From a virus: a stretch of DNA of 45,759 nt. Made by a program: the position numbers and the translations under genes. The notes under the pieces were generated by a model, which did not search any database, was not told the DNA's origin, and was given only the letters and a program-made list of their open reading frames with translations. Where the stretch lies: positions 1 through 45,759 of the IMG/VR virus record IMGVR_UViG_3300027852_000063; one strand, given 5' to 3'. Below, piece by piece: positions 3,640-45,759 of this stretch (position 1 is the first letter of the stretch; the number at the start of each line of letters is the position of its first letter).

Positions 3640-3870
3640 ATGCGTTTAAAATATTTTAAGTGGGTTGATGATCATATACCAAAGGATGGCGCCTACCATA
3701 ATGTTATTATTACTGAGGATAGTTTATATGTTGATAATGTGTATTGTTATATCAATGAGGAGCTAGAAAAACGAAGAATCATGCCTATACTATTGAAATA
3801 CTTTGGTATTGCTTTCTATATGTTAATTATTGTTGGTTTATTTTACATATTTTATACAGGGAGAGGGTAG
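3640..3870 (+). CDS. Small membrane protein with C-terminal helix
   Basis: This protein has 76 residues. A GGAG site lies shortly upstream of the ATG. Residues 1-48 are soluble-looking, with many charged and aromatic residues. Residues about 49-72 form a single hydrophobic helix, followed by Thr-Gly-Arg-Gly. The layout suggests a tail-anchored membrane protein with the N-terminal part in the cytoplasm (inference). It is not recognisable as a holin. It is the last sizeable gene before the leader with the solitary CRISPR repeat. Confidence 0.65.
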   Translation: MRLKYFKWVDDHIPKDGAYHNVIITEDSLYVDNVYCYINEELEKRRIMPILLKYFGIAFYMLIIVGLFYIFYTGRG

Positions 3871-3874
3871 CATC

Positions 3875-3919
3875 ATGGCAGGTTTTGGAGGTTGGATAGA
3901 TAAACATCTTGCGCAATGA
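3875..3919 (+). CDS. Possible 14-residue leader peptide
   Basis: A very short frame starts at an ATG preceded by GGGAGAGGG and ends in TGA at 3917. It would encode 14 residues with Gly and Trp. The ribosome binding site is good, but at this length chance is a real alternative. If translated, it would end about 30 bases before the CRISPR-type repeat. Confidence 0.25.
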   Translation: MAGFGGWIDKHLAQ

Positions 3920-3948: not shown

Positions 3949-3980
3949 ATCGCTCCCCGTGCGGGGGCGTGGATTGAAAC
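3949..3980 (+). repeat. Solitary type I-C CRISPR repeat (SRU1), candidate RNA anti-CRISPR
   Basis: This 32-base unit matches the type I-C repeat pattern. It has a CGCTCCCC left arm, a CGGGGGCG right arm, and the conserved 3' end GTGGATTGAAAC that becomes the crRNA 5' handle. The RNA would fold as a 7-bp stem (one G-U pair) with a CGTGC loop. It is GC-rich in AT-rich surroundings, stands alone with no second repeat, and lies in a 150-base leader between 3919 and 4070. It points the same way as transcription. Over the last 29 bases the copy at 15965 differs by one base (loop G/A). Phage-borne solitary repeats are known to work as RNA anti-CRISPRs; that role here is inference. Confidence 0.85.
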
Positions 3981-4069: not shown

Positions 4070-4477
4070 GTGGATAAATTAGCAGAAAAAATAGACACAT
4101 TAACGAAGTTAATATCGGTAAAACACAAAACACCTGTGGCCGAACAAGATTGGATTTATTTAATTCATCATATGCATCAACCTGAAAAAGAGGCGGATAT
4201 GGAGACTTTGCATCATTGTGAGTTATTTGAAAAAAAGAGCATGAAGGGGAAAAAGTTTACACAAAAACATGTAAAAGAAGGTAAAGTATATCAACATGTT
4301 TTAGACTTGAAAAAAGTAAGCGATAGTCCGAAGGTTGTTTATGATCATTTAAATAATGGATTTAAAGTTAAGGTTAGGAAAATAAATAAAAAAGAGTATG
4401 CGGTGCTGTCTGGATTAGTCAGTATTAAAAAAACGAAATGGTCAGATCAAGATGCAGGTAAGTTATGTGTGGTATAG
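4070..4477 (+). CDS. Basic hypothetical protein next to SRU1; candidate Acr by position only
   Basis: This 135-residue protein uses a GTG start with an AAAGGGGG site 8 bases upstream. A longer frame could begin at a GTG inside the CRISPR repeat (3959), but that start has no site and the added residues look like read-through of RNA structure. The protein is Lys/His-rich, mainly alpha plus beta, with a His-His-x-His cluster near residue 32. I recognise no family. It overlaps the amidotransferase gene by 13 bases. Solitary CRISPR repeats on phages are often close to anti-CRISPR genes, so this is the best candidate by location. Nothing in the sequence itself proves it. A short inverted pair (AGCCCC near 4008, GGGGCT at 4058) could mask its start site. 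Confidence 0.7.
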   Translation: MDKLAEKIDTLTKLISVKHKTPVAEQDWIYLIHHMHQPEKEADMETLHHCELFEKKSMKGKKFTQKHVKEGKVYQHVLDLKKVSDSPKVVYDHLNNGFKVKVRKINKKEYAVLSGLVSIKKTKWSDQDAGKLCVV

Positions 4478-5901
4478 TCGCTTGTATTGGTAATTATGAA
4501 CAAACGGATTTAATAGATAGATTATCTATTATAAAGCATCGTGGACCTGATGATGAACAGTATTTGTTTTTAGATAAGTTTGGGTGTGGTTTTGTTAGAC
4601 TCAGTATAATAGATGTGGATAATGGTGCGCAGCCAATTACCAATGAGAATAATACAATTATAGTAATGTGTAATGGTGAAATATATAATTATAAGGATTT
4701 AACTTTGGAATTGAAAAATAAAGGGCATATATTTAAAACTAGTAGTGATGTAGAAGTACTTATTCATTTGTATGAAGAGTATGGTGTGAAGTGCATAGAT
4801 TACTTACAAGGTATGTATGCTTTTGTTATATACGATGCCATAGAGTGTAGATTGGTGGTTGGTAGGGATCATATAGGGTTGAAACCATTGTTTTATGAAG
4901 TAAGTAAAAATAATATATTTATATCTTCCGAGTTAAAGTGTTTTTGTGGTACGAATGATGATGTTGCTTCTTTGATGGAAAAAAATTTATTTGGTTTTAT
5001 ATTAGATACAGAATCTACGGTGTATGAAAATGTAAAGCAAGTTAAACCAGGATGCGTTTTTTATGTTGATTATCCATTACTTAGTAGAATTAATCATTAT
5101 GAGGCTAATTATAATATAAAGGAAAGTTCTTTAGAAGATTGTTTGAAAAAAGCAGTGGAAACACATCTATTGAATTCAGATGTGGATGTAGGTATATCCC
5201 TTTCCGGTGGAGTTGATTCATCACTAATAGCGGTGCTTTGTAAAGAAGTGAGAGCAGATGTGAATACCTATACTCTTACTACCACACGTGGGTCAGAAGA
5301 TGCATACTATTCTAGAAAATTGGCTAGAAAATATGGGTTTAACCATACTGAAATCACCATTGATAGTGTACCAGCGATAGACAATAATTTTAATTATGCG
5401 TTGGATTATGTATTGTCGGATAGTGGTGTGTTTAACAGTAAAGGTGATATTGTTGTGATGCGCTTCTATGAAAAAGTTGCAAAGTATGTTAAAGTAATGT
5501 TGTCTGGTGATGGTGGCGATGAATTATTTGGTGGGTATTGGATGCACGAAAAACCTTTAGGGTTTAAGGATAAGTTATTATTAAATTGTTTTGATGACAC
5601 GTTTAAGTGCTGGTTAGATCGTAAGTTTCCAGAAAACAATGAGTGCGTTGGTGCAAAAAGTGTGTTAGATATATTGTTTACTTCAGCATTACCAAATTAT
5701 CATTTGTGGACTCTTGATAGAAGTTCTATGAGATATGGAGTGGAAGCTAGGGTTCCTTATTTAGATGTAAATGTAATGTATAATGTATTGAATAAAGAGA
5801 GTAGAATTGGTAAAAAATTATTAAACTCTATGTATCTAAAGTACTTACCAGATTACATAGTGAATAGAAGTAAAGTAGGTTTTTGTGACGCTTTGGGGTA
5901 G
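4465..5901 (+). CDS. asnB: Asparagine-synthase-type glutamine amidotransferase
   Basis: This 478-residue protein has a class II glutaminase half followed by an ATP-pyrophosphatase synthetase half. Glutaminase residues include the N-terminal nucleophile Cys2, Arg45 in a Arg-Leu-Ser-Ile-Ile-Asp segment, Asn70-Gly-Glu-Ile-Tyr-Asn and Asp95. Synthetase residues include Ser-Gly-Gly-Val-Asp-Ser-Ser at 247-253, Ser-Gly-Asp-Gly-Gly-Asp-Glu at 347-353, and the later Glu-Ala-Arg-Val-Pro-Tyr-Leu-Asp. All key residues are present, so an active enzyme is likely. The reaction moves glutamine ammonia to an ATP-activated carboxylate. It is shorter than the usual 550-630 residues and ends just after the Arg-Ser-Lys-Val-Gly-Phe element. 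The substrate could be aspartate or a cell-wall carboxyl; the M15 peptidase next door makes the wall option worth testing. Confidence 0.9.
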   Translation: MCGIVACIGNYEQTDLIDRLSIIKHRGPDDEQYLFLDKFGCGFVRLSIIDVDNGAQPITNENNTIIVMCNGEIYNYKDLTLELKNKGHIFKTSSDVEVLIHLYEEYGVKCIDYLQGMYAFVIYDAIECRLVVGRDHIGLKPLFYEVSKNNIFISSELKCFCGTNDDVASLMEKNLFGFILDTESTVYENVKQVKPGCVFYVDYPLLSRINHYEANYNIKESSLEDCLKKAVETHLLNSDVDVGISLSGGVDSSLIAVLCKEVRADVNTYTLTTTRGSEDAYYSRKLARKYGFNHTEITIDSVPAIDNNFNYALDYVLSDSGVFNSKGDIVVMRFYEKVAKYVKVMLSGDGGDELFGGYWMHEKPLGFKDKLLLNCFDDTFKCWLDRKFPENNECVGAKSVLDILFTSALPNYHLWTLDRSSMRYGVEARVPYLDVNVMYNVLNKESRIGKKLLNSMYLKYLPDYIVNRSKVGFCDALG

Positions 5902-9230: not shown

Positions 9231-9710
9231 ATGTGGTATGTATGGACTATCGTTACTAAACGTATGAAGGATGTGTGTGTTTATTTAGATGGGTTATCTT
9301 TTGTTGGTGCTTATTTGTACCCAACTATAGATAAAAAAACAGAAAGAAAAGGTAAAGAACCACTTACTAGAAAAGTACCTGTATATGGTAATTACATATT
9401 CATTAAATACGATAGAACTGAAGACAAGGATTGTGTATTAAATAGGTGTAAATGGTTGGTTGGCTATGTGGGTCTGTGCACTGATAAAGAGATGAAGATG
9501 GTTAGAAAGGTAGTTAATTATGATTATGGTGATCTATTTAAAGATGATTATATATCGGTGGGGTCCCACGTTAAATTTATAACTACAGTATTTAGTGGTT
9601 TTTCAGCTATTGTAATGAATATGGATGGTGATGTTGTTACCGTTAGTATTAGATTGTTTGGAGCTGATAACTTAATAAAGTGTAATATGGATGATATAGT
9701 ACTATTATAG
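9231..9710 (+). CDS. NusG/RfaH-like transcription factor
   Basis: At 159 residues it is close to the length of RfaH and short NusG proteins. The N-terminal part (1-95) fits the NGN domain: Trp-Tyr-Val-Trp at the first strand, Val-Pro-Val-Tyr-Gly-Asn-Tyr-Ile-Phe-Ile at 49-58, and Val-Gly-Tyr-Val-Gly at 77-81. The C-terminal part (105-159) fits a KOW-type barrel: Val-Gly-Ser-His-Val-Lys, Phe-Ser-Gly-Phe, then Val-Ser-Ile-Arg-Leu-Phe-Gly. NusG proteins bind the RNA polymerase clamp and control pausing and termination. Its place just before the terminase and head genes suggests late-operon antitermination (inference). It follows the zinc-ribbon gene with no gap. Confidence 0.82.
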   Translation: MWYVWTIVTKRMKDVCVYLDGLSFVGAYLYPTIDKKTERKGKEPLTRKVPVYGNYIFIKYDRTEDKDCVLNRCKWLVGYVGLCTDKEMKMVRKVVNYDYGDLFKDDYISVGSHVKFITTVFSGFSAIVMNMDGDVVTVSIRLFGADNLIKCNMDDIVLL

Positions 9711-14619: not shown

Positions 14620-15933
14620 GTGGGACATAAAGGAGACGATGAAAAAACATATTATTTAGAAGCTCCTATACAGATGGTCGATGAAACAGAAGATATGAAG
14701 CGTGTTGTTGCTTCAGTAATAGATCTACCTATTGGAGAAGATAAACAACCCGATCTTTTATATTTTACAGCCTTATTTGCGTCGTCCGGGGCTAATCTAA
14801 ACCACGCATACTTTTTTCCGTCTGAGCTAGTTGCAGCTAGGAACACTATTGCAAACAAAGCTGTTGATATTGAGCACGATGAAGAAGAGATAGTAGGGCA
14901 TTTATATGATTGGAAGTTTGTCGATAAAAACAATGAAGCGATAGACGTTGATTCACTATTAGCACAATCAGATGATGAGATTGATACATTAGGTATGGAT
15001 ATAATAGTTGCAGGAGTTGTATACAAAACTAGGTTTAAAACACTCTCAAAAGAGGTACAGGAAAATAAATGGTGTGTATCTTTAGAAACATTTTATGAAG
15101 ATTACGATATAAAAGTGGGGGACACTTGTTTAAAGAGGCAAGAAGCTGAATCTTTAGGGTTGACCTTAAAAGAATTAGGCAAAAGTGTACGCATTGTTAA
15201 AAACAATTATGAAATGTGTTGTGGTGAAGTGAAAAAAGTGTTAAGAAATTTATTGTTTTCAGGGTGTGGATTTGTTAAACATCCGGCTAATACCACTTCT
15301 TTTGTATTAGAAACATCTAATGTGAATGACGAGGATCCTATCATTATAAATATTGTAGATGATACCACGAGCGGTAAAATAGAAGGCAGTATAAACGCAG
15401 ATACAGATGAAGACACATCTTTTAAGGTACAGCTGCCTGAGCATATAGTTGAAAAAATAAGTAATGAGACAGAGAAGTCTCAAGTAGTCAATTTAAAGCT
15501 TAAGGATGGTACGTTGTTTGAGAATATAGGTTTAGAAGAGATGAATTGTGTTGTTTTACCCAAGGATGTAGCAACCTCTGAAATAGAGGACATTGAATTT
15601 AGTGAAGTCTCTGTGCAGGTGGAGAATGCAGATATTGATACAATAGATATAAGAAAAAATACCAGTGTAGGTATTTGTGTCAATTATAAACGTTTTGTAC
15701 ATAATGCTTCTGGTGGTATTGTTCACAATGATTGGTGTTCTTTATACGCAACAGAGTGTGCTTCTTTTTCTAGAGATGTTACAGATCCAGATTGTTTAAA
15801 AAATGTGGTAAGAAATAAAGCTACCGCATACATTAATTATTTATTTGATAAGTATGAAGAGAATTCAAGAATAGCTGAATTAATGGATGAATTATTGAAT
15901 AATTTATCTATAGTGTCTATTTTTAAGGTTTAA
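14620..15933 (+). CDS. Putative prohead protease / core protein
   Basis: This 437-residue protein has a GTG start with a GGAGGT site 8 bases upstream. The N-terminal 260 residues fit a capsid maturation protease: Asn-His-Ala-Tyr-Phe-Phe-Pro near 61-67, Val-Asp-Ile-Glu-His-Asp with His86 followed by Val-Gly-His, and Trp-Cys-Val-Ser-Leu-Glu with Ser154 as candidate nucleophile. A later Gly-Phe-Val-Lys-His-Pro-Ala-Asn near 237-244 matches the usual 'hPAnp' element. The C-terminal 180 residues are acidic and may be scaffold-like. It would cleave scaffold and capsid tails before packaging. It precedes the scaffold and capsid genes. Confidence 0.72.
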   Translation: MGHKGDDEKTYYLEAPIQMVDETEDMKRVVASVIDLPIGEDKQPDLLYFTALFASSGANLNHAYFFPSELVAARNTIANKAVDIEHDEEEIVGHLYDWKFVDKNNEAIDVDSLLAQSDDEIDTLGMDIIVAGVVYKTRFKTLSKEVQENKWCVSLETFYEDYDIKVGDTCLKRQEAESLGLTLKELGKSVRIVKNNYEMCCGEVKKVLRNLLFSGCGFVKHPANTTSFVLETSNVNDEDPIIINIVDDTTSGKIEGSINADTDEDTSFKVQLPEHIVEKISNETEKSQVVNLKLKDGTLFENIGLEEMNCVVLPKDVATSEIEDIEFSEVSVQVENADIDTIDIRKNTSVGICVNYKRFVHNASGGIVHNDWCSLYATECASFSRDVTDPDCLKNVVRNKATAYINYLFDKYEENSRIAELMDELLNNLSIVSIFKV

Positions 15934-15964: not shown

Positions 15965-15996
15965 GTAGCTCCCCATGCGGGGGCGTGGATTGAAAC
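15965..15996 (+). repeat. Solitary type I-C CRISPR repeat (SRU2)
   Basis: This 32-base unit begins GTAGCTCCCC and ends GTGGATTGAAAC. From its fourth base on it is identical to SRU1 (3949-3980) except for one loop base (A for G). The stem is 6 bp with one G-U pair. It lies in the 96-base gap between the protease gene and the 137-residue protein gene, 33 bases before that start codon, and in the transcribed orientation. No second repeat or spacer follows. It would be part of the late head-gene transcript. It may act as an RNA decoy for Cas proteins or as a Cas5-type cleavage site within the leader. Confidence 0.85.
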
Positions 15997-24704: not shown

Positions 24705-26774
24705 ATGGCAGTAAGATCTGATATATCTATAGATTGGAACTCTTCACCAAGAGTGATTAACATAACGTCTGAGTCTACTGAACTAACTATACAGGATTTA
24801 GTGGATACTTGTCGTGAGCGTGAAGAGAGATTAATCAATATGGATAACCCCTACCTTGTTGATGCCGCCGGTAAAGAGTATTTAGGCGGCACAACATATG
24901 TAGGAATTACAGTAACATTGAAGAATGCTGTTGTTGCGTTTAAGGCGAGGCCTGGTCCAGATTGGGTATTGTGCTCTATACAAGGTGGTAATCTGGTGGC
25001 TGTGGATGATTCAGAGCCACCAGTGTATATAGATGTTCGTAAACCAACTGCGTATACGTCTTGTAATCTTACAGCGTCGTCGTCAGCTACTTTGCAGGAG
25101 CAGTCTAGTCTTCAGTATAGTTCTTTCAATGGGGGCATTACTGTCGATGTGGTTAACGGCACTGCTGGTGTGGAGTTTCCTACAGGAACCTCTGAACAAC
25201 CAGTTAATAATTTAGACGATGCTAGGGCGATAGCAAGTGAGAGGGGCTTTGAACTTTTATATATTATAGGCAATATAACTTTTGGGACAGGTGATACTCT
25301 ATCGGATTTCGAAGTGGTAGGGCAGAACTTTAACAAGACACTTATAACAATAAACGCTGCTGCAAATATATATGATTGTGAATTTAGTGATGCTAACGTT
25401 GTAGGGGTGTTAGACGGTAGTTGCGTTTTCAAAGATTGTATGTTAAGTGATTTGGACTATTACAGTGGGGTGATATCACGATGCATTTTACTACCAGGAA
25501 CGATAACGTTGGGAGGTGGCAATCCCGCTCATTTTCTGGACTGTTGGTCTGGAGATCCGGGAGTAGATGTACCAACAATAGATATGGGCGGAAGCGGGCA
25601 ATCATTGGCGCTGCAAAATTACAATGGGGCACTAAAACTAACAAATAAAAACGGGGATGAAGAAGTTATTGTGACCCTAAATTCAGGGGAAATAGAAATA
25701 GCAAGCACAGTAACTAATGGTGATATATATTTAAGAGGAGTTGGCGAAGTTGTTGATAATTCTACTGGAACTGCTGTAGTAGATAGTCTTTCTTTATTAT
25801 CAGCTTATAGTATTACCGCCATACACTGGAAGGAAGTATATGTAGACACTAATAGCACTGTATCAGGCACTGCATTTCCTATTGGGACTTCAAGGTATGC
25901 TGTTAATAATTTGAGTGACGGTATCGCTATAGCAACGCGTGAAAATTTAGGTAAGTTTTTTGTAAATGGAAATATAACATTAACTGAAGATGTGTCTGGT
26001 TACCATTTTGAGGCTTTTGATCCATTTAGGTGTGTTATTGACTTCAATAATGTAAATGTAATAAACGCGTCTTTTGATAGATGTGGTTTGAGTGGTGTAA
26101 TTAATGGACCAATAAATTGTGTACAGTGTGGCGCATTTGATATCAGTAATATGAGTGGCACGTTAAAAGATAGTATAGTTACTAGTGGAATTGAATTTGC
26201 TGAAAATAGTTTCACTTATCTTGTTGATACTACTGCTGAAGGCTTTGGCATACTAAATATCGATATGAATAAGTCCGCTAAAGTAGTGGCACTTAATTGT
26301 GAGATGTCGTGGGAAGTAACTAACATGACAGACGCTGCGGCCAGTATTACTAAAACTGGAAGTGGTAATGTATTTCTTGGTGCAACAAATACAGCTGGTT
26401 TTGTGGCAGTAGGTACATCTGGTAAAATAATAGATACCGGGCAAACTGGACTATATATTTATGATGACACTACACGGTCAGTTGTATGGGACGAACTTTC
26501 TTCTAGACATAGTATAACTGACTCTTTTGGAAAAATAGTATCAGATTCGGAGAGTGTTTTACTTAGGTCTGTTGGTCTTATGCAGGAGAACTATTACTTA
26601 GATCAGACTGTGTATACAACATATCAAGGGGCTAAGTTACTAACTAGTGGTAGAATTCGTATTTATTCTAATGGAGTATCAGTAGGCACCGATGATGATG
26701 TAGTAAGTACGTATTCAGTTACATCAGAATGGTCAGGGGATGAATTACAAACTTATAAAGTAGTTAAACAGTAG
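24705..26774 (+). CDS. Beta-helix fibre-like protein with internal duplication
   Basis: This protein has 689 residues. Two copies of a roughly 200-residue unit are visible. Both begin with Val-Tyr-x-Asp or Val-Asp-Val, then Gly-Thr-Ser-x-x-x-Ala/Pro-Val-Asn-Asn-Leu-x-Asp and Ile-Ala, then Asn-Ile-Thr, and continue as beta-helix-like rungs (Cys-Glu-Phe-Ser-Asp, Ala-Ser-Phe-Asp-Arg-Cys). The last 70 residues (Leu-Met-Gln-Glu-Asn-Tyr-Tyr-Leu-Asp to Gln-Thr-Tyr-Lys-Val-Val-Lys-Gln) form a separate domain repeated at the end of the 28195 protein. No catalytic site is seen. A trimeric head or neck fibre is the likely nature. Confidence 0.72.
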   Translation: MAVRSDISIDWNSSPRVINITSESTELTIQDLVDTCREREERLINMDNPYLVDAAGKEYLGGTTYVGITVTLKNAVVAFKARPGPDWVLCSIQGGNLVAVDDSEPPVYIDVRKPTAYTSCNLTASSSATLQEQSSLQYSSFNGGITVDVVNGTAGVEFPTGTSEQPVNNLDDARAIASERGFELLYIIGNITFGTGDTLSDFEVVGQNFNKTLITINAAANIYDCEFSDANVVGVLDGSCVFKDCMLSDLDYYSGVISRCILLPGTITLGGGNPAHFLDCWSGDPGVDVPTIDMGGSGQSLALQNYNGALKLTNKNGDEEVIVTLNSGEIEIASTVTNGDIYLRGVGEVVDNSTGTAVVDSLSLLSAYSITAIHWKEVYVDTNSTVSGTAFPIGTSRYAVNNLSDGIAIATRENLGKFFVNGNITLTEDVSGYHFEAFDPFRCVIDFNNVNVINASFDRCGLSGVINGPINCVQCGAFDISNMSGTLKDSIVTSGIEFAENSFTYLVDTTAEGFGILNIDMNKSAKVVALNCEMSWEVTNMTDAAASITKTGSGNVFLGATNTAGFVAVGTSGKIIDTGQTGLYIYDDTTRSVVWDELSSRHSITDSFGKIVSDSESVLLRSVGLMQENYYLDQTVYTTYQGAKLLTSGRIRIYSNGVSVGTDDDVVSTYSVTSEWSGDELQTYKVVKQ

Positions 26775-28194: not shown

Positions 28195-28719
28195 ATGTCT
28201 ACTGGAATGGTTGGGAAAAAAGTATATGAGGACTTTTCAGTTACTGATGAAAACAATGATTTAGTGGACGGTATTTCAGTTAATACTTTTATGGCTGATT
28301 TATTTGACCCAGATGGTTTGGAAGTAAGTGCTTCTATGAGTGTTAGTATGGTTGAACTTGGCAATGGTCATTATAGAATAGAATTTACACCGAATAAGAG
28401 TGGTGCTTGGTATTTGGTTGTTTACCACACCCAGTATTTTCCTTGGGGTAAAGCGAATGATATTATAGTATATACTAGTGATTTTAGCAGTTTAGGGGAT
28501 ACTATTGCCAGAATTATTGGTTTAGTGCAAGAGAACCACTATTTGGATAACACTGTTTATACAAATTACCAAGGAATTAAATTACTAACAAGTGGTAGAA
28601 TGCGTATTTATTCAAACAAAAATTCTGTTGGAACTGGTAATGATGTACTTGGCACATACATAGTCACATCAGAGTGGTCTGGTGATGAACTACAAACATA
28701 TAAGGTGGTTAGACAATAA
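28195..28719 (+). CDS. Ig-like virion protein with duplicated C-terminal domain
   Basis: This protein has 174 residues. Residues 1-95 look like an immunoglobulin-type sandwich (Tyr-Glu-Asp-Phe-Ser-Val-Thr, Gly-Asn-Gly-His-Tyr-Arg-Ile-Glu-Phe-Thr-Pro). The last 72 residues (from Ile-Gly-Leu-Val-Gln-Glu-Asn) repeat the end of the 24705 product at high identity, including the final Trp-Ser-Gly-Asp-Glu-Leu-Gln-Thr-Tyr-Lys-Val-Val. A shared end domain suggests the same docking partner or trimerisation unit. The stop overlaps the next ATG. Confidence 0.7.
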   Translation: MSTGMVGKKVYEDFSVTDENNDLVDGISVNTFMADLFDPDGLEVSASMSVSMVELGNGHYRIEFTPNKSGAWYLVVYHTQYFPWGKANDIIVYTSDFSSLGDTIARIIGLVQENHYLDNTVYTNYQGIKLLTSGRMRIYSNKNSVGTGNDVLGTYIVTSEWSGDELQTYKVVRQ

Positions 28720-33801: not shown

Positions 33802-34593
33802 ATGGTTGAAGAAAGACGGAGTTTTTCATTAGATGATGGTAAGGTTTATTTTATAGCGACCCCAACTGCTGAAAATATTAGAAATGCTGATTGGCAGTAT
33901 AGCAAGGTGTTTACTAAAAGTCTCAGTGAAGGTATAAACACATCCGCTGAAATGATGGATATATTAAAGCAACGTGGTGTAATAGGGCCAGAATTTGAGC
34001 AAAGAGGCCAAGAGCTGACCGATATGCTGAATGAAAGAATTCAAAAGCTTGAAGCGTGTACGGATATGGATGAGAAGCAGAGTTTGGCTATGGAAGTAGC
34101 TAATATGAGGGAAGAAGTGTTTAGGTGGAATCAGCGTTTACAAGTGCCTTTATCTCATAGCTGTGAGTCTTTAGCTGATGATGCTCGTTTAGAGTTTCTA
34201 ACTTACAGTATGGTGGAAAAAGATGATGGAGAAAAGATTTGGGATAGTTATAGTACTTTTTTAATAGAGAAAGATCAAGGGTTGATTTTAAGATCTCGCT
34301 TTGAAGTTATGTTGTACTTACGTGGATTGGACCAAGATTTTCTTGATAGGACACCTGAAGCTGTAGCTATACAAGAAGTTGAAGTAGAGTTGCAGAGTAA
34401 AGCTGAGGAAGCTATTCAATCTATAAAAGATTTAACTGATAAAGATACAGCAGATAAAGGTAAGCAGGAATTTCCTGTAGATGGTGGATTCACTAGTCAT
34501 AGTCCTGAAGGTTCAGAAGCAAGTAACAAGGTGGATGTTGAACCTAAGGATAAAACTAAAAACAAGCGTACTGGTAAAAAGAACAAAGATTAG
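33802..34593 (+). CDS. Tail assembly chaperone, copy 1
   Basis: This 263-residue protein has an AAGGAGGAGG site. Central pattern: Tyr-Ser-Lys-Val-Phe-Thr-Lys-Ser-Leu-x-Glu-Gly-Ile-Asn-Thr, then Leu-Lys-Gln-Arg-Gly-Val, a Leu/Glu helix, Ala-Asp-Asp-Ala-Arg and a Trp-Asp-Ser-Tyr region followed by Phe-Glu-Val-Met-Leu-Tyr. The same order appears in the 34684 protein, so the two are paralogues. The C-terminal 50 residues are disordered and Lys-rich. Position between tail tube and tape-measure-position gene supports a chaperone of the gpG/gpGT class. Here the pair is two separate genes rather than a visible frameshift product. Confidence 0.65.
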   Translation: MVEERRSFSLDDGKVYFIATPTAENIRNADWQYSKVFTKSLSEGINTSAEMMDILKQRGVIGPEFEQRGQELTDMLNERIQKLEACTDMDEKQSLAMEVANMREEVFRWNQRLQVPLSHSCESLADDARLEFLTYSMVEKDDGEKIWDSYSTFLIEKDQGLILRSRFEVMLYLRGLDQDFLDRTPEAVAIQEVEVELQSKAEEAIQSIKDLTDKDTADKGKQEFPVDGGFTSHSPEGSEASNKVDVEPKDKTKNKRTGKKNKD

Positions 34594-34601
34594 GTGATTG
34601 T

Positions 34602-34638
34602 TGTGTACTAGAGAAAGACCCACTTTCTCTAGTACACA
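34602..34638 (+). terminator. Perfect 16-bp hairpin between the two chaperone genes
   Basis: TGTGTACTAGAGAAAG (34602-34617) pairs perfectly with CTTTCTCTAGTACACA (34623-34638) around an ACCCA loop. It is the strongest inverted repeat in the window. The following bases are TCAAGAAGG, so no U-tract. It could be a terminator of unusual type, an RNase cleavage site, or a stabiliser that sets different levels of the two chaperones. Confidence 0.65.
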
Positions 34639-34683
34639 TCAAGAAGGAAAGGCTTAAGTCTGATGGGAGGCTTGAATGAGTAG

Positions 34684-35688: not shown

Positions 35689-35820
35689 TAAAAATTTTTT
35701 CACTGGATAGGTTTGGTTTAATTCACTTCTAATTTTCATTTCTTAAACGGCTTAGAATAGATAGGCAGGGAATACTTTTTTTCACTGTAATTCATTAATT
35801 TATCTAGGGGGCCGTCCAAA

Positions 35821-38800
35821 TTGGCAAATCCAAATTTAACTTACACTATTAAACTAAAAGAAGAAGCAGGTAAATCATCTGTAAGCACTGATGTAAAAAC
35901 TGTAACTAGAGACTTGTTGACTGTGTCTAAATCAGTTGATGCATTAAAAAAGCAAATACAAGATGATTTAAGTGCTAATAAAAGGCATATTGCTACAATA
36001 ACAAAAAATGTTAATAATTTTGTCAAAATAGCAGAACAATCTGATGTTTTGTCTGGGGTTATAGATAAATTAACTAGTCGTTTAGACAAATTACCTACTA
36101 CAATTAGGGCTATTGCAACTAAAGCTATTGAAGAAGCTAAGTCTATACGTGGAAAGTCTGCTGAAGTTTCTTTTGGTACGCCAGGTAGTTCTACATACGA
36201 TAAAACCACTAATGATGTTTTGTCTGAACTTATTAAAATGAGGAAATCTGTCAAACAAGCTCCTGAAACTAGAATTGCGGATGTAAGTAAAGGCAAGATT
36301 GAAAGTGCCATATCTGATCTAATAAAATCGATAGCATCTGGACAACAGGATGTGAAAAAAGAGTTAAATGATTTACGTAGTGTGGTTGCTTCTCTTGTAA
36401 GACGAGAAGAGCAGAAACCTGTAGCACTTATGGGTAAGACGTTAGAACCTTTAACAAAAGAAGTTAAGGTATTAGCTAAAGAGTTGAAAGATACGAAAGT
36501 AGCCATACTGGATTTAGAAACAGGACCTATAAAAAACAATGGAGTAGATTTTATAACACAAGCTGGGGTAATAGTAGAGAAGTTAGGTACTATTTTAAAA
36601 ACACCTAGTGGGCAATTAAATGTTAAAGAGACTTACTTTAAACCTCCTGTAAAGACAGAATCTGAGTATAAGCAGTTATATAAGGGTGTACCTATAAAAC
36701 CAGTTGATTTTAAAACACTAGAAGACAAAGGTAAAACGGTAGAAGATGGGTTGGTAGAATTGGCTAATAGGTTAAAAGAGGCTGAAGTAATTATCGGGCA
36801 TAACATAGGTAACTTTGATTTAAAGGTGTTGGAAGCGGCATTTAAAAAAGCTGGAATTAAAATAGATTTAGCAGCTAAGCAATATTATGATACATTAGCT
36901 GAAGCTAATAAAGAATTTTTTTCTAGGCCTGCTGGTCAGGCATTAGGGTCTTATGCTGAATCATTTGAGAAGTCTGGTAAAAAGTTGGGGCGAGGCGCTA
37001 GTCATGAGGCTGGATATGACGTAAGAGCTAATGCAGAACTGATTAAAGCGATGGCATCTGAAGCAACTAATCTAATATCAGTTGAAGGTGATATGGAGAA
37101 AGTTGTAGAGAGAATAAATAAAAAACTCGGAACTTTAACTGTTACTACAGATTCTGTACAAGCAAAGATACATGCCTTTGGCGATACGATTATGGAAACA
37201 TCCCATGGTTTGGATGGTTTTAACCTTAGCTTATCTAAATCTGCTGATAATGTTTTAAAACATGCTGAAGTTAAACTAGGTAAGCCTTCAGATATTAGGT
37301 CTGCAATACAAGTACAAAGTTATGTTTCCACGGTTGTAGAGCCTACTAAACCAGGAGTACCTGAGCAGCAGTACAGTACTAAAAAAGGTGATAGACGTGA
37401 AGTTAATTATTTAATTGATGATCTTTCTAAATCATTGACTAAACTACAAGATAATATAGTTAAGGCATTGAAAACTAATTTAAGTGAAGGATGGGAACTT
37501 TTAGAAACTGATTCGGGTAAATTTTTTGAACTTGGTAAGGGGCAGCGGGAATGGGAATTAAAGATAGTTAACGTAAAAGATATAAAGAAAGAGTTTGAAG
37601 ACGCATTTAGAATAAAAATTGATCCTGATAAGATGGGCATGCAAGGGTTGCTTGAAGTGTATGGAGCAGAGTTAAAAAAGTTTTTACATAAACAAGCGGG
37701 TACTCCAGAGGATGTTGCTATTGCTGTAGAAGCATGGGCTAAGTCAGCACCTAAAGAGGATATTGCATCTCTTACTGATACAATGCAATACCAGATTAGT
37801 AAAATACGTGAGGGCGGGTTGTCAAGAAGAGAAATAATGGATATCCCCTACTTAGGTGAGATATACAAAGCTACAGTTGCTGAAGCTGAAGTAATGCGTA
37901 AATTAAGTAAAGATATTGTTAAGACTATTAGTGTACCAACGGCTAGAGTAACTGAACAAGGAACAGTAGCATTTCAAACTAAATATGGCAGCGAAAGAGC
38001 TTTGTCTAATTTTGTAACTGTTACAAGGGGGTTAGAACGATTAGTAAAAGAGTACAGTGAGTTGGGAGGCACTAAGGAAAAAGAAAAAGCTAGCATTCTG
38101 GCTGTCGGTTTAAAAGATGTACCTTTTAAGATAGAACCTGGTTTCGAAGCTATTTTCGATGAGTTTGCTAAACAAGTTATTAGTGGAGTTAAAGGAGTTG
38201 GTGGAACAGGTGTTCTTAGAGAAAGCTATACTGAGGCTATAAAGTTAAGAAGGGCTGAACGAGGAAAGCCTTTAGAGGAACAAAAGTTAGCTGCTAGTGG
38301 TTTAGAAGAGTTGGAGACAACAGCGAAAAATCTTGGTATTACCGCATTAGATGTTGCTCAAGCTTTTGATAAGGTTGATTTTGATAATTTTTATGATGTA
38401 TTAGATAAACTGTACACTTATACTGGCACCGGCGGTAAGAAGTCGTTTATGGAGCAATCTGGCCAAAAGATGAATGAAAGAACTCTTCGTGAAATTGATA
38501 AAGTTGTTAATGAATTGCAGGGTATACTACCTCTTATTGAGCCTGGAAGGCCTAGAAGAAAAGAATATGATGAAAGAGTTGTTAATGTTTTAACTAAACC
38601 AATATTAGAAAGACTTACGCCTAATGCTCAAAAAGACTACATAAAGCAATTAAATTTACGGTTGGCAGAGTTAATAGCTGCTGCTAAAAAAACTGGTAAA
38701 TCTGGGCTTTATGCTGGTAAAGAGTATTTAGGTGTACCAGAACAACTATCCACAATTAATATAAGTGATTCAGCTGGGGCAGCATTTAGACAATTTAATA

Positions 38801-41800
38801 AGGAGTTCGATAGTTCTTTAAAGAATTTAGATTCTACTATGGTTAAAATGACCACAGGTAATCTTAAGACGTTAGCTCCTTTTGGTGAGCAGTTCAATGC
38901 GTGGAATAGGCAAATGTCTTATGTTACTAATGCTATGACTAGTAAAACTGGTGGTTTTGAAGTTCCTTCTATGTTAAGTGAAAGTGAGGCCAAATTAGTA
39001 AAAAGTGGTAAATATGGTACAGCTGGGTATGGTATGACAGTAATGACAGAATTAAGAAACACAGCTAGTACTTTTGAAGATCAGATAATGATATCAGGTA
39101 AATTGGCTAAAGCGTTTACTGAAATAGTAAAACCGTTGGTAGGGCCTGGAGCAACTATAGAGAAGGGTAGAAAAATTGGAGAGATAGAACCAGGACTTAA
39201 ACATATCAGTGAATCAGGAAAAGATTTTAGAGATAGTGTAGTTGAAGCGTCTAATAAAATTCAAGACGTGCTTGGAGTAGAAAAGAGGTATGAAGGGCGC
39301 GCTGATGTAGCCGGCATTTTATCTCAGGTTGAAAAGGCAAGAAGAACACACAGAGGTGAATCTGTAGAGGTGCAAATAGCTAAATTAACAGAGGTGTTTT
39401 TAAATCACTTTGGAAGAAAATTTTCTACTAGATATGGCACTAAAGGTGTAGGGGTTTCTGTTCCAGAGATACAAAGTGCGGGGGATATATCTAAATTTTT
39501 AAAGGGTGGTTTTAAAGCTAAAGTTGCACCTGGTGGTCTTGGTGTTGTTGAACGACAGAAAAGTATGGGGGAGTTGTCTGTAGAAATACTGGAAGATGTG
39601 TTTGGGTCTGGTGCTGTTAAGGACGAACTAAAAACAAAACTACTTGAGTCTGGAAATAGGTTTATTATAGATATTTTCACAGATGCACGTAAGGGGATTG
39701 TAACTGAAACACAAGCTGCGGAACAAAAAAAGGTTTTTAATGATGTAGTAGGCCAATTTGAAAAAGCAGGTTTTGCGGTAAAAGATTTTGAGGGTATAGA
39801 AGGAATAAAAAAGATAAAAGAGATTTATACACAAAGGTTTGGTAAAGAAGGCTTGGTAGAAGCCACACCTATAGAAGCTAGAATAAGTTCATATGGTGTA
39901 GCTAAAAGAGGAATACAAGCAGAAGTATTGGAACCTATTATTGCTAATTTAGTAGGTAGTACTAAGGGTACTACAATAGTTAAGGATGTATTTGAAAAGA
40001 AAGCATATGAAAGTTTTTTAGGTAAAAAAGGTGAAGAAGGTGAATTAAGTAAATATCTAAAAGCACTAGGGTATACTGGTCTCGATAAAGAAGAGATAGT
40101 GAAAATAAAAAATAGCTTAGGGGAAGACGCAGCTAAACTTGAGGAAGCCCACTCTGTGTATTCTAATGTTGTAAATGAATATGGAGAAAGAATAAAAAGT
40201 GTAGTTGGTCCTAAATTTTTACAAATAGTGGAAGAACCACATATATATAGGGGATGGGGTGCAAAAGAAATATCTAAAGGCATAAAGGGAGAAAAACTTA
40301 ATTTACAGGCTTTTTCTGCATACGCTAATATTTTTGGTGAAGGCTCATCAATGTTGAATGAATTGGGTAGATCTGTTTCTTTAACTTCTAAAGAAGGGTG
40401 GGAAGCTATTCGTTCTTTACAAATGTTAAATCCTGAATTGAATGTCTTTAGTAAACGAGTATTATCTACTCTTCCTACACATAAAACTTCAGATATAAAA
40501 ATGTTTGATAAAGCTACAGGAACTGTAGAGGAATTTAAAGATACTATATTTGATATTAGTAAATACCCATCTGCTTTTAAAATTCAATACCCTACTGGTA
40601 TGAGTGGAGCAAAGGAAGAGTTGTATATTCCTGGACCTGAGCTTAGAGGAACATATAAAGAAGAATTAATGGGTGGGAAAAGGGCTCCAGCGGAAGCTGG
40701 TAGACGGTTGGAGATATTTCTACAGAAAATAAGAGAAGTAGAAGACATACTTACAGGTGGTACGGAAGGGGTGTCTGGAAAGGTACCCAAAGAGCAATTA
40801 CGTGGTGCTGTTTTACAACATGTTACTGATGCTTATAAAACAGTACAAAAATTAGAAAAAACACCCACTGAAGAGAACCTACAATCAATACGTCAAATTA
40901 TAGATAGTTTAAAAGTAGGGTTATCTACGACTGAAGATGTACCTTCTATATACGCACCATTTGTACCTGGAAGACGTTCTAGTGCAGGAATGCCACAATT
41001 AGAGGCTGTTGAAAGATACGAAAGCTCTGAGTTGGAACGTGGTATAAAGGGTATGTACAGTAGGATAGTGGGGCGTATAAACGATATACTAGTAGGAGCA
41101 AAACCAGATGAGTTACGTAAGGAAATAAGTGATATAGAATCTTATTTAGTTAAATATAAAAAAACAGGGGCTATACCTGAAGAGGCTAGAGGATATTACG
41201 AAAAAAGCAAAACAGCTGCTGGAGGACGAGAAAGATCTTTTGAAGAAGTTATGTCGATGTATCGTAAAAGATCTGAATCACGATTATCAGCAGAATCTAC
41301 TTTTGATATAGAATTAAAATCTGGTAATTTAGACGAGTTTGCAAATAGATTGGGTGTTAAAATTGAGTATACGGTAGAGGACGCTTTAAATAAAGCCCTT
41401 GAAAAAATGAATGTTGCAAAAATAAAATACTATAAAACACTAGGTGAAAGCGTTATAGGGCCTAAAAAAGGTATAGAAAACGTATTTTTTCAAAGGGCTA
41501 TACCTGCTATTTCTGCTAAAGCTATAAGTGCACAAGTAGATAAGGTTGAGGAATTGACTGAACTATTAACTTTTCTTAAAGGTAGAAAAGATATAGTGAT
41601 GACCACTAAGTTAGAAGGTGGTAAAAATGCTATTTCTGCTTTAGGAGAACTTATAAAAAAGCATGAGGAGTATGTTGCAAAAGCTAAAGAACTTGGATTA
41701 CCAGTTTTAAAAGAAGGTGAGATAGGTTTGCCGAAAGAGATGGCTGCTCAGTTACGTGTTAGTGCTGAAGGAGGCAGAACTAATTTAGCCGAACTTATAG

Positions 41801-44800
41801 AGAAAAAAGCAAAGAAAGAAGAGTCTGTATATGTAGAAAGTACAAGATTCCCGTTTACTGGAGCACATAGTATACAACCTGCTAAGGCTAGATTAATGTC
41901 AGGTGAGTTGGCAAAACATGCTATTTCTGTTCCTGGTTCACCTGAACTTGATTTTGATACATTAAATTCTATATTGGATGGTTTGAAAGAGTATGTTGAA
42001 GGTCCAGAGGGGTTGGTACAAAAAAGAGAAGAAGCTTGGGAGCAAGGGGATGTATCTGCAGCTAAAAACCTCACCAATGAAATAGAAGCAATAACTACAC
42101 TTATTAAAAAAGCTACTCCGACGTTTATGGCTATGGAACAAAAGCTAGATTATGATGGTGATGCTTTGTTTGTGCATACTGGTCAATTGGAAGCATCAAG
42201 AGAGGAAATTAAAAGACATTTTGATGAGTTAGGAAAAGATATATTATCTGTAAGGTCACTATTTCAGACATTGTTTACTGCTGTCGATGAAAAAGATGTG
42301 CGCACCTTGTCTGAAATGGCTCAAGTATTTTATAAACGGCAGCCTGAGTCTGGTGGGTTTGAGTTTCTAACTAAACCATCTATAATAACTGAAGTAGAAG
42401 ATATGAATATAAACAAAGTTTTAGAGGCTTTGTTTATGTACACTAAAAAGGGAGAAAAAGCTTCTACAGATTTATCCAAAGGACAGATAACTAAAGAAGA
42501 GTATGGTAAGGTTTTTAAAGAGTCTACTTATGACTTGTTACAGGGTACTGTTATGCCGTCGGCATATATAAAAGCTGGTGCGTCTCAAGATGAAAAAGCC
42601 TTATTTGGTAAGGTTTCTGAAGTTTCAAGAACAGGATTACCAGAAGAAGAGCATTTAAATGATATGCAAAAACGTATAAGAGATATAACTGTACAGGCAT
42701 TGAAAAAAATGCTTTATGAGAAAAAGTATAGTGATGCTATTGTAAGTCAACTTTATAAATTACATACAGGTATTACAGTAGAAGGTATTTCTAGGGTTGC
42801 GAGGATGACTGAGATAGAAACTGGAATAGGTAAAGGAACAGCTGGAACTGGAGCGGCTGCTAAGGGACCATCCGAATCTTTTTTACGTAGATGGCCAAAA
42901 GAAAGTATAGCTCTAGGTGAACGTCCTGTTAATGAGTTTGCCACTAGAATGAATGAGTTAATGCGTTTTATAATTCAAAAAGGTATGGATGAAAAACATG
43001 CTGGTGTAAGGGCTGTTTCTGAAGACATATTACAGAATATTGGTAAGTTCAAAGGTGCAGAGAAAATTGTTGAGGTGATGAAGGATGAGGAAGGGAGTTT
43101 TGAAGAATTTTTAGATTTTGGGGGTCAGATAACGAGATCAGCAAAACTTCGTTTGGGTAAATTAAGTACTTCAGACCTTAAGACTGAGTTAAAAAGATTT
43201 GAAGTTGGGGCTATGTCTGATGAAGATATGGCTAAAGAGTATAAATCTAAAATAATTGATGGTACTGCTTCTACTAGAGATGAAATGGCTAAAGCTTTAA
43301 TAACAAGCGCTGCTGAATATGATTTAAGTAGAGGTGATATTATAGATAAGATTATAAAACATATTGATTTAGAAGCTTTTTTCCAAGAATTATTTAGACA
43401 AATTAAACGTACTGCTGTAGCAGGATTGGTAAAAGCAACTACAAGTAGACTGGAAGGGTTGCCGCCAGAATTAGTTGGTAGAACTAGAAAAGAGGTGACA
43501 GCAGCTGGAGGAATAGAACCTTTTGCTAAAGCAAAAATAGAAGCTGAATCAATGACTCCAGCTGGCATAAATATACTAAAGTATATTACTACTGAATTAC
43601 AACCTTTATATAAAATGAGGACCAGTGCTGAGACTATATCTAGTGCAGCACAAAGATCTTCTGTTGCTCTTGATCCAGAAGTAATGGATGTCAATGACGA
43701 AAAACTAAAAAACACTTATGAAGATATAAGGAGTATGTCTGTAGTATTATCCAAGTCTTTACAGCAAACTTTAGACGCTGGTGGTATCGATACTTATTCT
43801 AAGATGGTAAGTAGTGCCATTGGTGCTAGAATGGATGAGTTAGAGTCATTATCTGCTGTAGCGCAATACATGGATATTGAAATGGGGAAACCTTTAGGAA
43901 CAAAAGAAGTCACATTAGCTACTGGTGAAGCTCGAGATGTACCAAATTTAGCAAGCCAACTTGTTGGAGCTGGAGTGTATGGTGCAGATACCAAGGCTAT
44001 AGACCAATATGTTGAAAAGTTATCACAAAAAGTAGGGGTACCAACACTTACTACTGAAGAAAAAAATCTAATAAGATATAAAGAAGAAGAGGCGGGGGTA
44101 TCTAAAAAGATAATTGATGCATCTAAAGAAATGTCAGGCGAAAGTGTTGGAAATAAATTTGACACCTACAAAGAAGATATCCGTGATATGGTGGAGTTTG
44201 AGTTATATACTATAGAACAACTAAGACGCGTATCCGAGGCACTAAAGACCATTCCGATGCAAAAAGAATACATGGAAACTATGGTTTTGGGACGGGGTGG
44301 TCCTGTTGGGGCTGGTGGTACTGGGTCCATAAGTACACAAAAAAGTGTCATAGACAGGGTTACTACTGGTGGTGCAACAACATCGTCAAGTAGCTTAAAA
44401 GATGCAGCCATTGATGGAGCTAATGAGATTGCCGAATCAATGGCTGCTATGCTAGTTAAGAGGCGAGGAGAGGCGTTAGAAGAGTTAAATCGCAAAGCAT
44501 CTGGTGGTATAGAGGATTTAAAAGGGGCTAACCTACTAGAACGCTACAGAGCGAGCGGTTTGCATGGAGGTGGGGGTTTTCGTGGAGAAAGCCAGGTAGA
44601 GGCTATAATGAAGGAGATGTTAGGTGTTGGTAAAGAAACTACTCCTCTTTTAGAGGCCACTTCTTTCCGAGGTTCTGCTATACATGAGGCAAAAAAGAGT
44701 GAGTATGAACGTAAGTTTGGAGAGATTACTACTGAAGGATTGGTGATAGGGCAAGATGCTATAGCTGGTCATTTTGATGTGATGTTTAGAGAACAGGGTA

Positions 44801-45759
44801 AGAATGTAATTGCTGATATAAAATCAATATATAAACCACAGGAATTTGAAGCTTTAAAACGCGTAAGTGGTATTATGGAAGGGGGTGGTTCATTATCAGA
44901 GGCATTGACTACCATAGACGTTGAGTTTTCTAAAGTTGCTAAATCGATTAGAAGACGCATGGAAGCTAATACAAGCCAATTAAATTTTTATTTAAGTAAG
45001 TATAAAGATTATGTCGGGCAACTTAAGTACATTAGTATGGATAAGCCTTATGATGAGGAAGTTACTATAGATATAGGTGCGTTTGATGCAAAACGCTATG
45101 AAAGCGATATAAATACTGTTAATGAGGCTAGAGCGAATATACTTAAGGTGTTTGAATCTGGTGGTATTACTCCTGAGCTAGAGCAATATAGGCCTATTGT
45201 TGAGGAGTTTGAGAAGAAGATAGGTGGTAAAGTTGTACAGTTTTCTAAATCGGAACTTATGAGTAAGTTGCCCCGTACCGCTTCTTTGAGTGAGTTGGAG
45301 TCTGCTGAGAAAGCTATGGAAGGGATTGCTACTGGGTTAGACGCAGCGGAGCAAGAGGCCTTTTCTAATATCAGTGAGCGTTATTTAAGATTGTTTGAAG
45401 AGTTAAAATCACTAGATAAAGCTGAGAGAGTATGGTCAGCAGCAGGAGCTGGTGGTATAGGGGGAGGTGTACCTCCTACAGGTGGTCCTCCTGGTGGGGG
45501 TGTTGGTGGTCCTCCTAGTGGCCCTCATGGAGGTGGGGGTGGTGATGATGAAAAGGAATATTTGAGAAAAATGAGGGAAAATATAGAAAGGCTACTTCAA
45601 TTGGAAAAAACTGCCAAAACCGGTAGAGTTGGCCTTTTTATTGATATGGAGACTTTATTACGTGAATTAGAAGAAAGGATGATAACAAGTCAAGGTGGTA
45701 GAGGTGAATATGTTGATTTAATGAACAAACTTAACACAGCACTAGAAAGTACTGATGTT
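35821..45759 (+). CDS. Giant multi-domain protein in tape-measure position, 3' end outside window
   Basis: The frame starts at a TTG (GGGGG site 9 bases upstream) and has no stop for 3,313 codons, to the window edge. I checked every in-frame codon. Domains: residues 1-215 helical; 227-410 DEDDh exonuclease (Asp231-x-Glu233, Gly-His327-Asn...Phe-Asp333, His395 and Asp400); long helical stretches; 2008-2125 RNA-polymerase-like segment (Arg2009-Phe-Pro...Ser-Ile-Gln-Pro, then Asp2110-Tyr-Asp-Gly-Asp2114 and Val-His); 2950-3060 PD-(D/E)XK nuclease (His2955, Asp2986, Asp2999-Ile-Lys3001, Gln3053-x-x-x-Tyr3057); 3209-3241 Gly/Pro-rich linker; then helical. Tape measures set tail length and enter the host; here enzymes appear to be built in. 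A 132-base gap precedes it. Confidence 0.85.
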   Translation, partial: MANPNLTYTIKLKEEAGKSSVSTDVKTVTRDLLTVSKSVDALKKQIQDDLSANKRHIATITKNVNNFVKIAEQSDVLSGVIDKLTSRLDKLPTTIRAIATKAIEEAKSIRGKSAEVSFGTPGSSTYDKTTNDVLSELIKMRKSVKQAPETRIADVSKGKIESAISDLIKSIASGQQDVKKELNDLRSVVASLVRREEQKPVALMGKTLEPLTKEVKVLAKELKDTKVAILDLETGPIKNNGVDFITQAGVIVEKLGTILKTPSGQLNVKETYFKPPVKTESEYKQLYKGVPIKPVDFKTLEDKGKTVEDGLVELANRLKEAEVIIGHNIGNFDLKVLEAAFKKAGIKIDLAAKQYYDTLAEANKEFFSRPAGQALGSYAESFEKSGKKLGRGASHEAGYDVRANAELIKAMASEATNLISVEGDMEKVVERINKKLGTLTVTTDSVQAKIHAFGDTIMETSHGLDGFNLSLSKSADNVLKHAEVKLGKPSDIRSAIQVQSYVSTVVEPTKPGVPEQQYSTKKGDRREVNYLIDDLSKSLTKLQDNIVKALKTNLSEGWELLETDSGKFFELGKGQREWELKIVNVKDIKKEFEDAFRIKIDPDKMGMQGLLEVYGAELKKFLHKQAGTPEDVAIAVEAWAKSAPKEDIASLTDTMQYQISKIREGGLSRREIMDIPYLGEIYKATVAEAEVMRKLSKDIVKTISVPTARVTEQGTVAFQTKYGSERALSNFVTVTRGLERLVKEYSELGGTKEKEKASILAVGLKDVPFKIEPGFEAIFDEFAKQVISGVKGVGGTGVLRESYTEAIKLRRAERGKPLEEQKLAASGLEELETTAKNLGITALDVAQAFDKVDFDNFYDVLDKLYTYTGTGGKKSFMEQSGQKMNERTLREIDKVVNELQGILPLIEPGRPRRKEYDERVVNVLTKPILERLTPNAQKDYIKQLNLRLAELIAAAKKTGKSGLYAGKEYLGVPEQLSTINISDSAGAAFRQFNKEFDSSLKNLDSTMVKMTTGNLKTLAPFGEQFNAWNRQMSYVTNAMTSKTGGFEVPSMLSESEAKLVKSGKYGTAGYGMTVMTELRNTASTFEDQIMISGKLAKAFTEIVKPLVGPGATIEKGRKIGEIEPGLKHISESGKDFRDSVVEASNKIQDVLGVEKRYEGRADVAGILSQVEKARRTHRGESVEVQIAKLTEVFLNHFGRKFSTRYGTKGVGVSVPEIQSAGDISKFLKGGFKAKVAPGGLGVVERQKSMGELSVEILEDVFGSGAVKDELKTKLLESGNRFIIDIFTDARKGIVTETQAAEQKKVFNDVVGQFEKAGFAVKDFEGIEGIKKIKEIYTQRFGKEGLVEATPIEARISSYGVAKRGIQAEVLEPIIANLVGSTKGTTIVKDVFEKKAYESFLGKKGEEGELSKYLKALGYTGLDKEEIVKIKNSLGEDAAKLEEAHSVYSNVVNEYGERIKSVVGPKFLQIVEEPHIYRGWGAKEISKGIKGEKLNLQAFSAYANIFGEGSSMLNELGRSVSLTSKEGWEAIRSLQMLNPELNVFSKRVLSTLPTHKTSDIKMFDKATGTVEEFKDTIFDISKYPSAFKIQYPTGMSGAKEELYIPGPELRGTYKEELMGGKRAPAEAGRRLEIFLQKIREVEDILTGGTEGVSGKVPKEQLRGAVLQHVTDAYKTVQKLEKTPTEENLQSIRQIIDSLKVGLSTTEDVPSIYAPFVPGRRSSAGMPQLEAVERYESSELERGIKGMYSRIVGRINDILVGAKPDELRKEISDIESYLVKYKKTGAIPEEARGYYEKSKTAAGGRERSFEEVMSMYRKRSESRLSAESTFDIELKSGNLDEFANRLGVKIEYTVEDALNKALEKMNVAKIKYYKTLGESVIGPKKGIENVFFQRAIPAISAKAISAQVDKVEELTELLTFLKGRKDIVMTTKLEGGKNAISALGELIKKHEEYVAKAKELGLPVLKEGEIGLPKEMAAQLRVSAEGGRTNLAELIEKKAKKEESVYVESTRFPFTGAHSIQPAKARLMSGELAKHAISVPGSPELDFDTLNSILDGLKEYVEGPEGLVQKREEAWEQGDVSAAKNLTNEIEAITTLIKKATPTFMAMEQKLDYDGDALFVHTGQLEASREEIKRHFDELGKDILSVRSLFQTLFTAVDEKDVRTLSEMAQVFYKRQPESGGFEFLTKPSIITEVEDMNINKVLEALFMYTKKGEKASTDLSKGQITKEEYGKVFKESTYDLLQGTVMPSAYIKAGASQDEKALFGKVSEVSRTGLPEEEHLNDMQKRIRDITVQALKKMLYEKKYSDAIVSQLYKLHTGITVEGISRVARMTEIETGIGKGTAGTGAAAKGPSESFLRRWPKESIALGERPVNEFATRMNELMRFIIQKGMDEKHAGVRAVSEDILQNIGKFKGAEKIVEVMKDEEGSFEEFLDFGGQITRSAKLRLGKLSTSDLKTELKRFEVGAMSDEDMAKEYKSKIIDGTASTRDEMAKALITSAAEYDLSRGDIIDKIIKHIDLEAFFQELFRQIKRTAVAGLVKATTSRLEGLPPELVGRTRKEVTAAGGIEPFAKAKIEAESMTPAGINILKYITTELQPLYKMRTSAETISSAAQRSSVALDPEVMDVNDEKLKNTYEDIRSMSVVLSKSLQQTLDAGGIDTYSKMVSSAIGARMDELESLSAVAQYMDIEMGKPLGTKEVTLATGEARDVPNLASQLVGAGVYGADTKAIDQYVEKLSQKVGVPTLTTEEKNLIRYKEEEAGVSKKIIDASKEMSGESVGNKFDTYKEDIRDMVEFELYTIEQLRRVSEALKTIPMQKEYMETMVLGRGGPVGAGGTGSISTQKSVIDRVTTGGATTSSSSLKDAAIDGANEIAESMAAMLVKRRGEALEELNRKASGGIEDLKGANLLERYRASGLHGGGGFRGESQVEAIMKEMLGVGKETTPLLEATSFRGSAIHEAKKSEYERKFGEITTEGLVIGQDAIAGHFDVMFREQGKNVIADIKSIYKPQEFEALKRVSGIMEGGGSLSEALTTIDVEFSKVAKSIRRRMEANTSQLNFYLSKYKDYVGQLKYISMDKPYDEEVTIDIGAFDAKRYESDINTVNEARANILKVFESGGITPELEQYRPIVEEFEKKIGGKVVQFSKSELMSKLPRTASLSELESAEKAMEGIATGLDAAEQEAFSNISERYLRLFEELKSLDKAERVWSAAGAGGIGGGVPPTGGPPGGGVGGPPSGPHGGGGGDDEKEYLRKMRENIERLLQLEKTAKTGRVGLFIDMETLLRELEERMITSQGGRGEYVDLMNKLNTALESTDV

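Follow-up and report, generated by a model that had tools for sequence, protein, structure and literature searches.

Among the genes of a viral genome fragment, two solitary repeats of the type I-C CRISPR kind are present, separated by 12,016 nt. The fragment, referred to here as the window, is the whole stretch of DNA that was analysed, a 45,759-base virus record with a GC content of about 35%, in which nearly all long open reading frames lie on the + strand. The features of the two loci are listed below, where the hairpin refers to the predicted fold of the isolated unit.

3875-3919, +: 14-aa mini-ORF MAGFGGWIDKHLAQ, directly upstream of copy 1
3949-3980, +: solitary type I-C repeat, copy 1, G-loop allele with the mismatch G1A, reading ATCGCTCCCCGTGCGGGGGCGTGGATTGAAAC
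3951-3969, +: predicted hairpin of copy 1, 7-bp stem (3951-3957 with 3963-3969) including one G-U pair, 5-nt loop
3970-3980, +: 11-nt 5' handle of copy 1, TGGATTGAAAC, with the Cas5c/Cas5d cut predicted between 3969 and 3970 from I-C processing
4070-4477, +: gene for a 135-aa protein downstream of copy 1, GTG start with AAAGGGGG upstream, no family
4465-5901, +: asparagine-synthase-like gene (Asn_synthase 1e-44, GATase_7 8e-40), in the same direction after the 135-aa gene
14620-15933, +: gene upstream of copy 2, a virion-module neighbour conserved in relatives (58 loci)
15965-15996, +: solitary type I-C repeat, copy 2, A-loop allele with the mismatch C3A, reading GTAGCTCCCCATGCGGGGGCGTGGATTGAAAC
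15986-15996, +: handle of copy 2, TGGATTGAAAC, with the Cas5c cut predicted between 15985 and 15986 on the basis of PMC5965380
16030-16443, +: gene for 137 aa following copy 2, AAGGAGG upstream, identity of at most 51% in relatives, head/decoration-like judging from position alone

Each copy agrees with the natural repeat GTCGCTCCCC[A/G]TGCGGGGGCGTGGATTGAAAC at 31 of 32 positions, and the sole mismatches are G>A at position 1 in copy 1 and C>A at position 3 in copy 2. For example, copy 1 differs at a single position of 32 from the natural repeat carried by L006, L011, L015 and L016. When the window was searched with the natural 32-mer, allowing A or G in the loop and no more than three mismatches, exactly two sites were found, and the mean number of chance sites over 100 shuffles of the window was 0.00. 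With blastn-short, copy 1 scored 61.9 bits (31 nt at 100%) and copy 2 scored 58.0 bits (29/32 nt at 100%).

The 29-nt core of the natural repeat occurs exactly in 16 stretches, from 12 prokaryotic genomes that include Dethiobacter, Desulfovibrio, Desulfobacteraceae, Latescibacterota, Paenibacillus, Saccharibacillus, alphaproteobacteria and others, and most of these stretches are arrays with spacers of 33-36 nt. The cas-gene context was inspected in two of the genomes. The array comes after cas8c, cas7c, cas4 and cas1c in the Dethiobacter MAG, while cas1c, cas4 and cas7c adjoin the array in the Desulfobacteraceae MAG. The repeat is assigned to type I-C since, in the two genomes inspected, arrays of the same sequence adjoin type I-C cas genes. 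Both loop bases are found in the arrays of genome contigs, A in L004, L005, L012-L014 and L017, and G in L006, L007, L011, L015 and L016, and the loop base of each window copy is one of these natural alleles, that is, G in copy 1 and A in copy 2.

Both copies are solitary. Within about 250-300 nt of each copy, the best other match to the repeat has at least 16 mismatches in 32 positions, and no cas gene was matched among the window proteins scanned. For a solitary repeat unit (SRU), SRUFinder sets thresholds of at least 90% identity and at least 90% coverage to a known CRISPR repeat with a bit score of at least 41.1, and both copies reach all three. Copy 1 lies between 3870 and 4070 (with the mini-ORF ending at 3919) and copy 2 between 15933 and 16030, both thus being intergenic, and no full or partial repeat is present within 100 bp of either. 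In these respects the window units are like the SRUs that SRUFinder collected from IMG/VR3, PLSDB and GTDB prophages (PMC10651486), which are intergenic, with at least 90% identity and coverage, more than 41.1 bits and no neighbouring repeat; the main text of that paper makes no mention of several SRU copies together. A viral mini-CRISPR array has at least two repeats around a spacer, an arrangement that neither unit shows, and the array or mini-array reading was dropped because a second local repeat is absent at both sites. The first-pass annotation had described 3949-3980 as a solitary type I-C repeat of a phage, accompanied by no cas gene, pointing along the transcript and present in two copies, and it is borne out in each of these points.

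In type I-C processing, the cut by Cas5 (Cas5d) leaves 11 nt as the 5' handle and 21 nt as the 3' part (PMC5965380), and the 11-nt Cas5c handle is intact in both window copies. When the 32-nt units are folded, the canonical hairpin is the predicted minimum for both, although the stem of copy 2 comprises 6 bp because C3A abolishes the outermost pair. A competing hairpin is predicted in the 116-nt context fold of copy 2. Fold energy was dropped as proof of structure, with a z of about -1. The Rfam search gave no known RNA family, and the tRNA search found none.

Copy 1 is sense to the genes on both sides. Upstream of it, a small ORF ending at 3870 is followed by the 14-codon mini-ORF, and its own end lies 89 nt ahead of the next start, GTG 4070. 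An ORF start at 3959, inside copy 1, was considered and dropped, since the likely start is the GTG preceded by AAAGGGGG and the product of 4070-4477 is 64% identical to that in the relative L067 from residue 4 on. The small ORFs around copy 1 matched zero Pfam families and gave no convincing hit to a PADLOC family. No homologue of an acr gene was recognised near the units, and the promoter and terminator scans gave nothing above background. The product of 4465-5901 contains glutamine amidotransferase and synthase domains and matches PHROG 16728, a family with no assigned function.

Copy 2 is likewise sense to both flanking genes, placed 31 nt past the stop of 14620-15933 and 33 nt ahead of the start at 16030. 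Terminase relatives are encoded by 80 phage contigs, and the 16030 orthologue could be located in 44 of them. The gap upstream of this orthologue is 3-68 nt long and repeat-free in the 44 relatives, against 96 nt in the window, and copy 2 was thus gained inside the late operon. The upstream protein has about the usual length at its C-terminus compared with the relatives; copy 2 was therefore gained, and not uncovered by truncation. The end of the window gap (ACTAAGGAGGATTAAAGCTT) is similar to the leader of the relatives, such as AGTTAAGGAGGATTAAATT in L062, L064 and L065. Relatives of the upstream protein were recovered by tblastn on the terminase-relative contigs, and an IMG/VR pattern scan for them returned none. 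The 29-nt GC-rich core of copy 2 has not drifted within the 35% GC genome, and no other I-C repeat was found in the 1.13 Mb covered of the window and the 80 terminase relatives, where the near-matches are unstructured handle matches with one mismatch only. In L050, L052, L060, L067, L068, L078, L095 and L096, the gap before the 16030 orthologue holds a conserved small hairpin, AGCTG...CGAG(T/C)CAGT, which is a different RNA element at the site where the window has copy 2.

As for the phage itself, the terminase similarity to cultured phages is only about 30%, to Bacillus megaterium phages, and the portal is about 22% identical to that of phage G. Consequently, no host is inferred from cultured phages. 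A comparison of 320 spacers from arrays with the same repeat against the window and its relatives gave no convincing match among the matches listed, and prophage relatives were found in none of 297 Desulfobacterota-side and 300 Bacillota-side genomes. The comparison with type I-C host repeats that the first-pass annotation had proposed succeeded in part: arrays with the same core exist in 12 genomes, but none of these is identified as the host of this phage. Elsewhere in the window, 1557-2576 encodes an actin-like protein (Pfam Volactin, 6.5e-68) with homologues in 31 related phage loci, and a single open frame of about 3,320 codons, from about 35,700 to 45,759, encodes a very large protein truncated at the contig edge. 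A 202-nt direct repeat (26572-26773 and 28517-28718, 75% identity) spans the 3' ends of two genes, and a 20-nt inverted repeat with a 5-nt gap and 95% complementarity (34598-34642) lies directly past the gene 33802-34593.

Could such units be common among phages? An IMG/VR scan with GGGGGCGTGGATTGAAAC returned 63 stretches, mostly with one unit each. A looser scan with GCGTGGATTGAAAC was filtered for structured units, that is, those whose handle adjoins a stem of 5 bp or more with TCG at the base, and the counts that follow are lower bounds among the matches listed. The filter kept at least 84 structured solitary I-C units, at least 77 of them distinct, in at least 76 contigs. Among the matches listed, and with a simple ORF caller, an exact handle demanded and related phages only partly removed, 61 of the 77 distinct units are intergenic, and, for units with two callable neighbours, the sense orientation relative to both (37 units) outnumbers the antisense orientation relative to both (14 units; p=0.002). 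When a covariation subset is picked solely by its basal TCG and GCG, standard pairing is seen in 134 of the 145 inner stem pairs, compared with 115 +/- 2.2 (maximum 123 in 2000) when the 3' halves are reshuffled, and the covarying changes include C-G to G-C and T-A. This covariation points to mimicry of I-C repeats and not to activity, since host repeats covary too and the 77-unit set was picked by stem and handle. Judged by their sequences, these units show that faithful mimics of I-C repeats are widely carried by phages, which does not imply activity of each.

Two or more distant solitary units are present in at least seven contigs among the matches listed, namely the window and at least six others, and contig 3300014656_000213 is an eighth two-unit case, whose second unit is cut by the contig end. 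A type I-C case with two copies in one phage had been expected to be notable; the second copy in the window is real, but the recurrence of distant pairs in at least seven contigs, the window included, makes the arrangement less exceptional than supposed. The two units of 3300017989_000161 differ in their stems, as do those of L203, each stem being consistent with itself, and neither pair is therefore a plain duplication. We also found three identical solitary I-C units (GTCGCGCCCCGCGCGGGCGCGTGGATTGAAAC) at 9303, 11360 and 11957 of contig 3300031673_000079 (L208, L229), all in one direction.

The closest known system is RacrIC1, an I-C unit from a prophage of Bifidobacterium pseudocatenulatum, which lies 11 nt behind acrIC5 on a bicistronic RNA, inhibits the I-C system in Pseudomonas aeruginosa and restores infection (Camara-Wilpert et al., 2023; PMC10651486). 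Like it, the window units are solitary type I-C repeats in a phage-derived element with no cas genes, and their sense position among genes resembles the co-transcription of RacrIC1 with a protein gene. However, RacrIC1 follows acrIC5 and was shown to be active, whereas the window has no recognised acr homologue and two candidate copies; RacrIC1 also comes from a prophage, and the window phage has no sign of being one. A type I-C RNA anti-CRISPR (Racr) is not new, one having been validated in 2023, and in this respect the first-pass annotation overstated its case. With RacrIF1, the window units would share the mimicry of a repeat that the crRNA-processing nuclease binds and cuts. For lack of a 5' handle, the inhibitory RacrIF1 complex contains neither Cas5f nor Cas8f; the I-C mechanism must differ, and so should the stalled complex, since Cas5 is here the cutting enzyme and the downstream RNA would retain the 5' handle. 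The mini-CRISPR arrays of Saccharolobus portogloboviruses (PMC6858448) also place host-type repeats in a viral genome, but there a spacer lies between two repeats and related viruses are targeted, while the window units are single.

Two solitary repeats, complete in hairpin and handle, co-oriented with their neighbours and with no array or cas match, argue for the reading that had led from the beginning. We put the probability at about 0.72 that both units are operon-embedded Racrs against the type I-C system of the host. Both repeats would be transcribed within phage mRNAs, and host Cas5c would bind each hairpin and cut past the stem, so that the downstream RNA would begin with TGGATTGAAAC. 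On the phage mRNA, Cas5c could then assemble as on a guide, probably together with Cas7c and Cas8c, and this decoy assembly would leave fewer free Cas proteins for real crRNAs. A fuller dummy complex is conceivable in type I-C, as the downstream RNA would keep the handle. The usual type I-C PAM is TTC, and no self-targeting would be expected at the unit's own locus, because the repeat fills the PAM position with AAC instead. With one copy in the accessory region and the other in the virion-gene region, decoys may be present both early and late.

Under a more elaborate form of the Racr reading, which we hold to be rather unlikely, several mimics of different host alleles would sit in mRNAs of different phases, and host Cas5c would make handle-bearing dummy guides, giving a whole but useless Cascade, and would also cut and time the operon. 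If so, the phage's own mRNAs would be turned into dummy guides by host Cas5c. What stands out in the window is that the two copies lie in different transcription regions, each with a different natural loop allele and an intact 11-nt handle. The kind of decoy is already known in outline from RacrIC1, and the window is a new two-copy example and a strong candidate for a Racr pair. RNA anti-CRISPRs are a recent discovery and tested type I-C cases are few, and this phage would offer a clean natural test case, with two separate units, one of them in a late operon whose site is empty in relatives. Multi-copy, in-operon I-C units also recur across unrelated phages.

Alternatively, the units may be Cas5c-dependent processing or regulatory sites in phage mRNAs, altering downstream expression instead of, or besides, acting as decoys. 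Both are flanked by genes running in one direction, with the next start 33 or 89 nt further on, and the placement within operons is similar in L114, L195, L203, L245, L247 and L274. However, such sites would require an active I-C system in the host, no phage precedent was found, and the neighbours differ among phages, with no common regulated gene, so that we regard this explanation as unlikely. Host repeats captured by array recombination, or left by a decayed mini-array, and now functionless would fit the lineage-specific distribution of the units, and their near-identity to host repeats would fit a recent capture. But the repeats stand at two independent sites whose flanks are unrelated and lack both a spacer and a second repeat, the copies are not a simple duplication since their alleles differ, and both are intergenic and sense, a bias shared by the wider set, which makes a relic origin quite unlikely. 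That the units are one-repeat crRNA-like guides against a competitor virus or host gene, like viral mini-arrays or the CreA antitoxin RNA, is highly improbable: the complete I-C handle would in principle permit an effector complex, and some viral mini-arrays do target related viruses (PMC11656645, PMC6858448), but the 36 nt downstream are an ordinary leader with a ribosome-binding site, they match only short AT-rich stretches outside their own locus among the loci compared, and no spacer is defined without a second repeat.

In addition, arrays with more than one repeat were observed on other viral contigs. A three-repeat I-C mini-array lies at 4022-4186 of L003, a phage contig with 60% GC, beside genes resembling those for phage tails and lysis. 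The viral contigs L143 and L183 have I-C arrays of 11 and 12 repeats, respectively, at one end, which could belong to the phages or represent host sequence at the edge of the contig.
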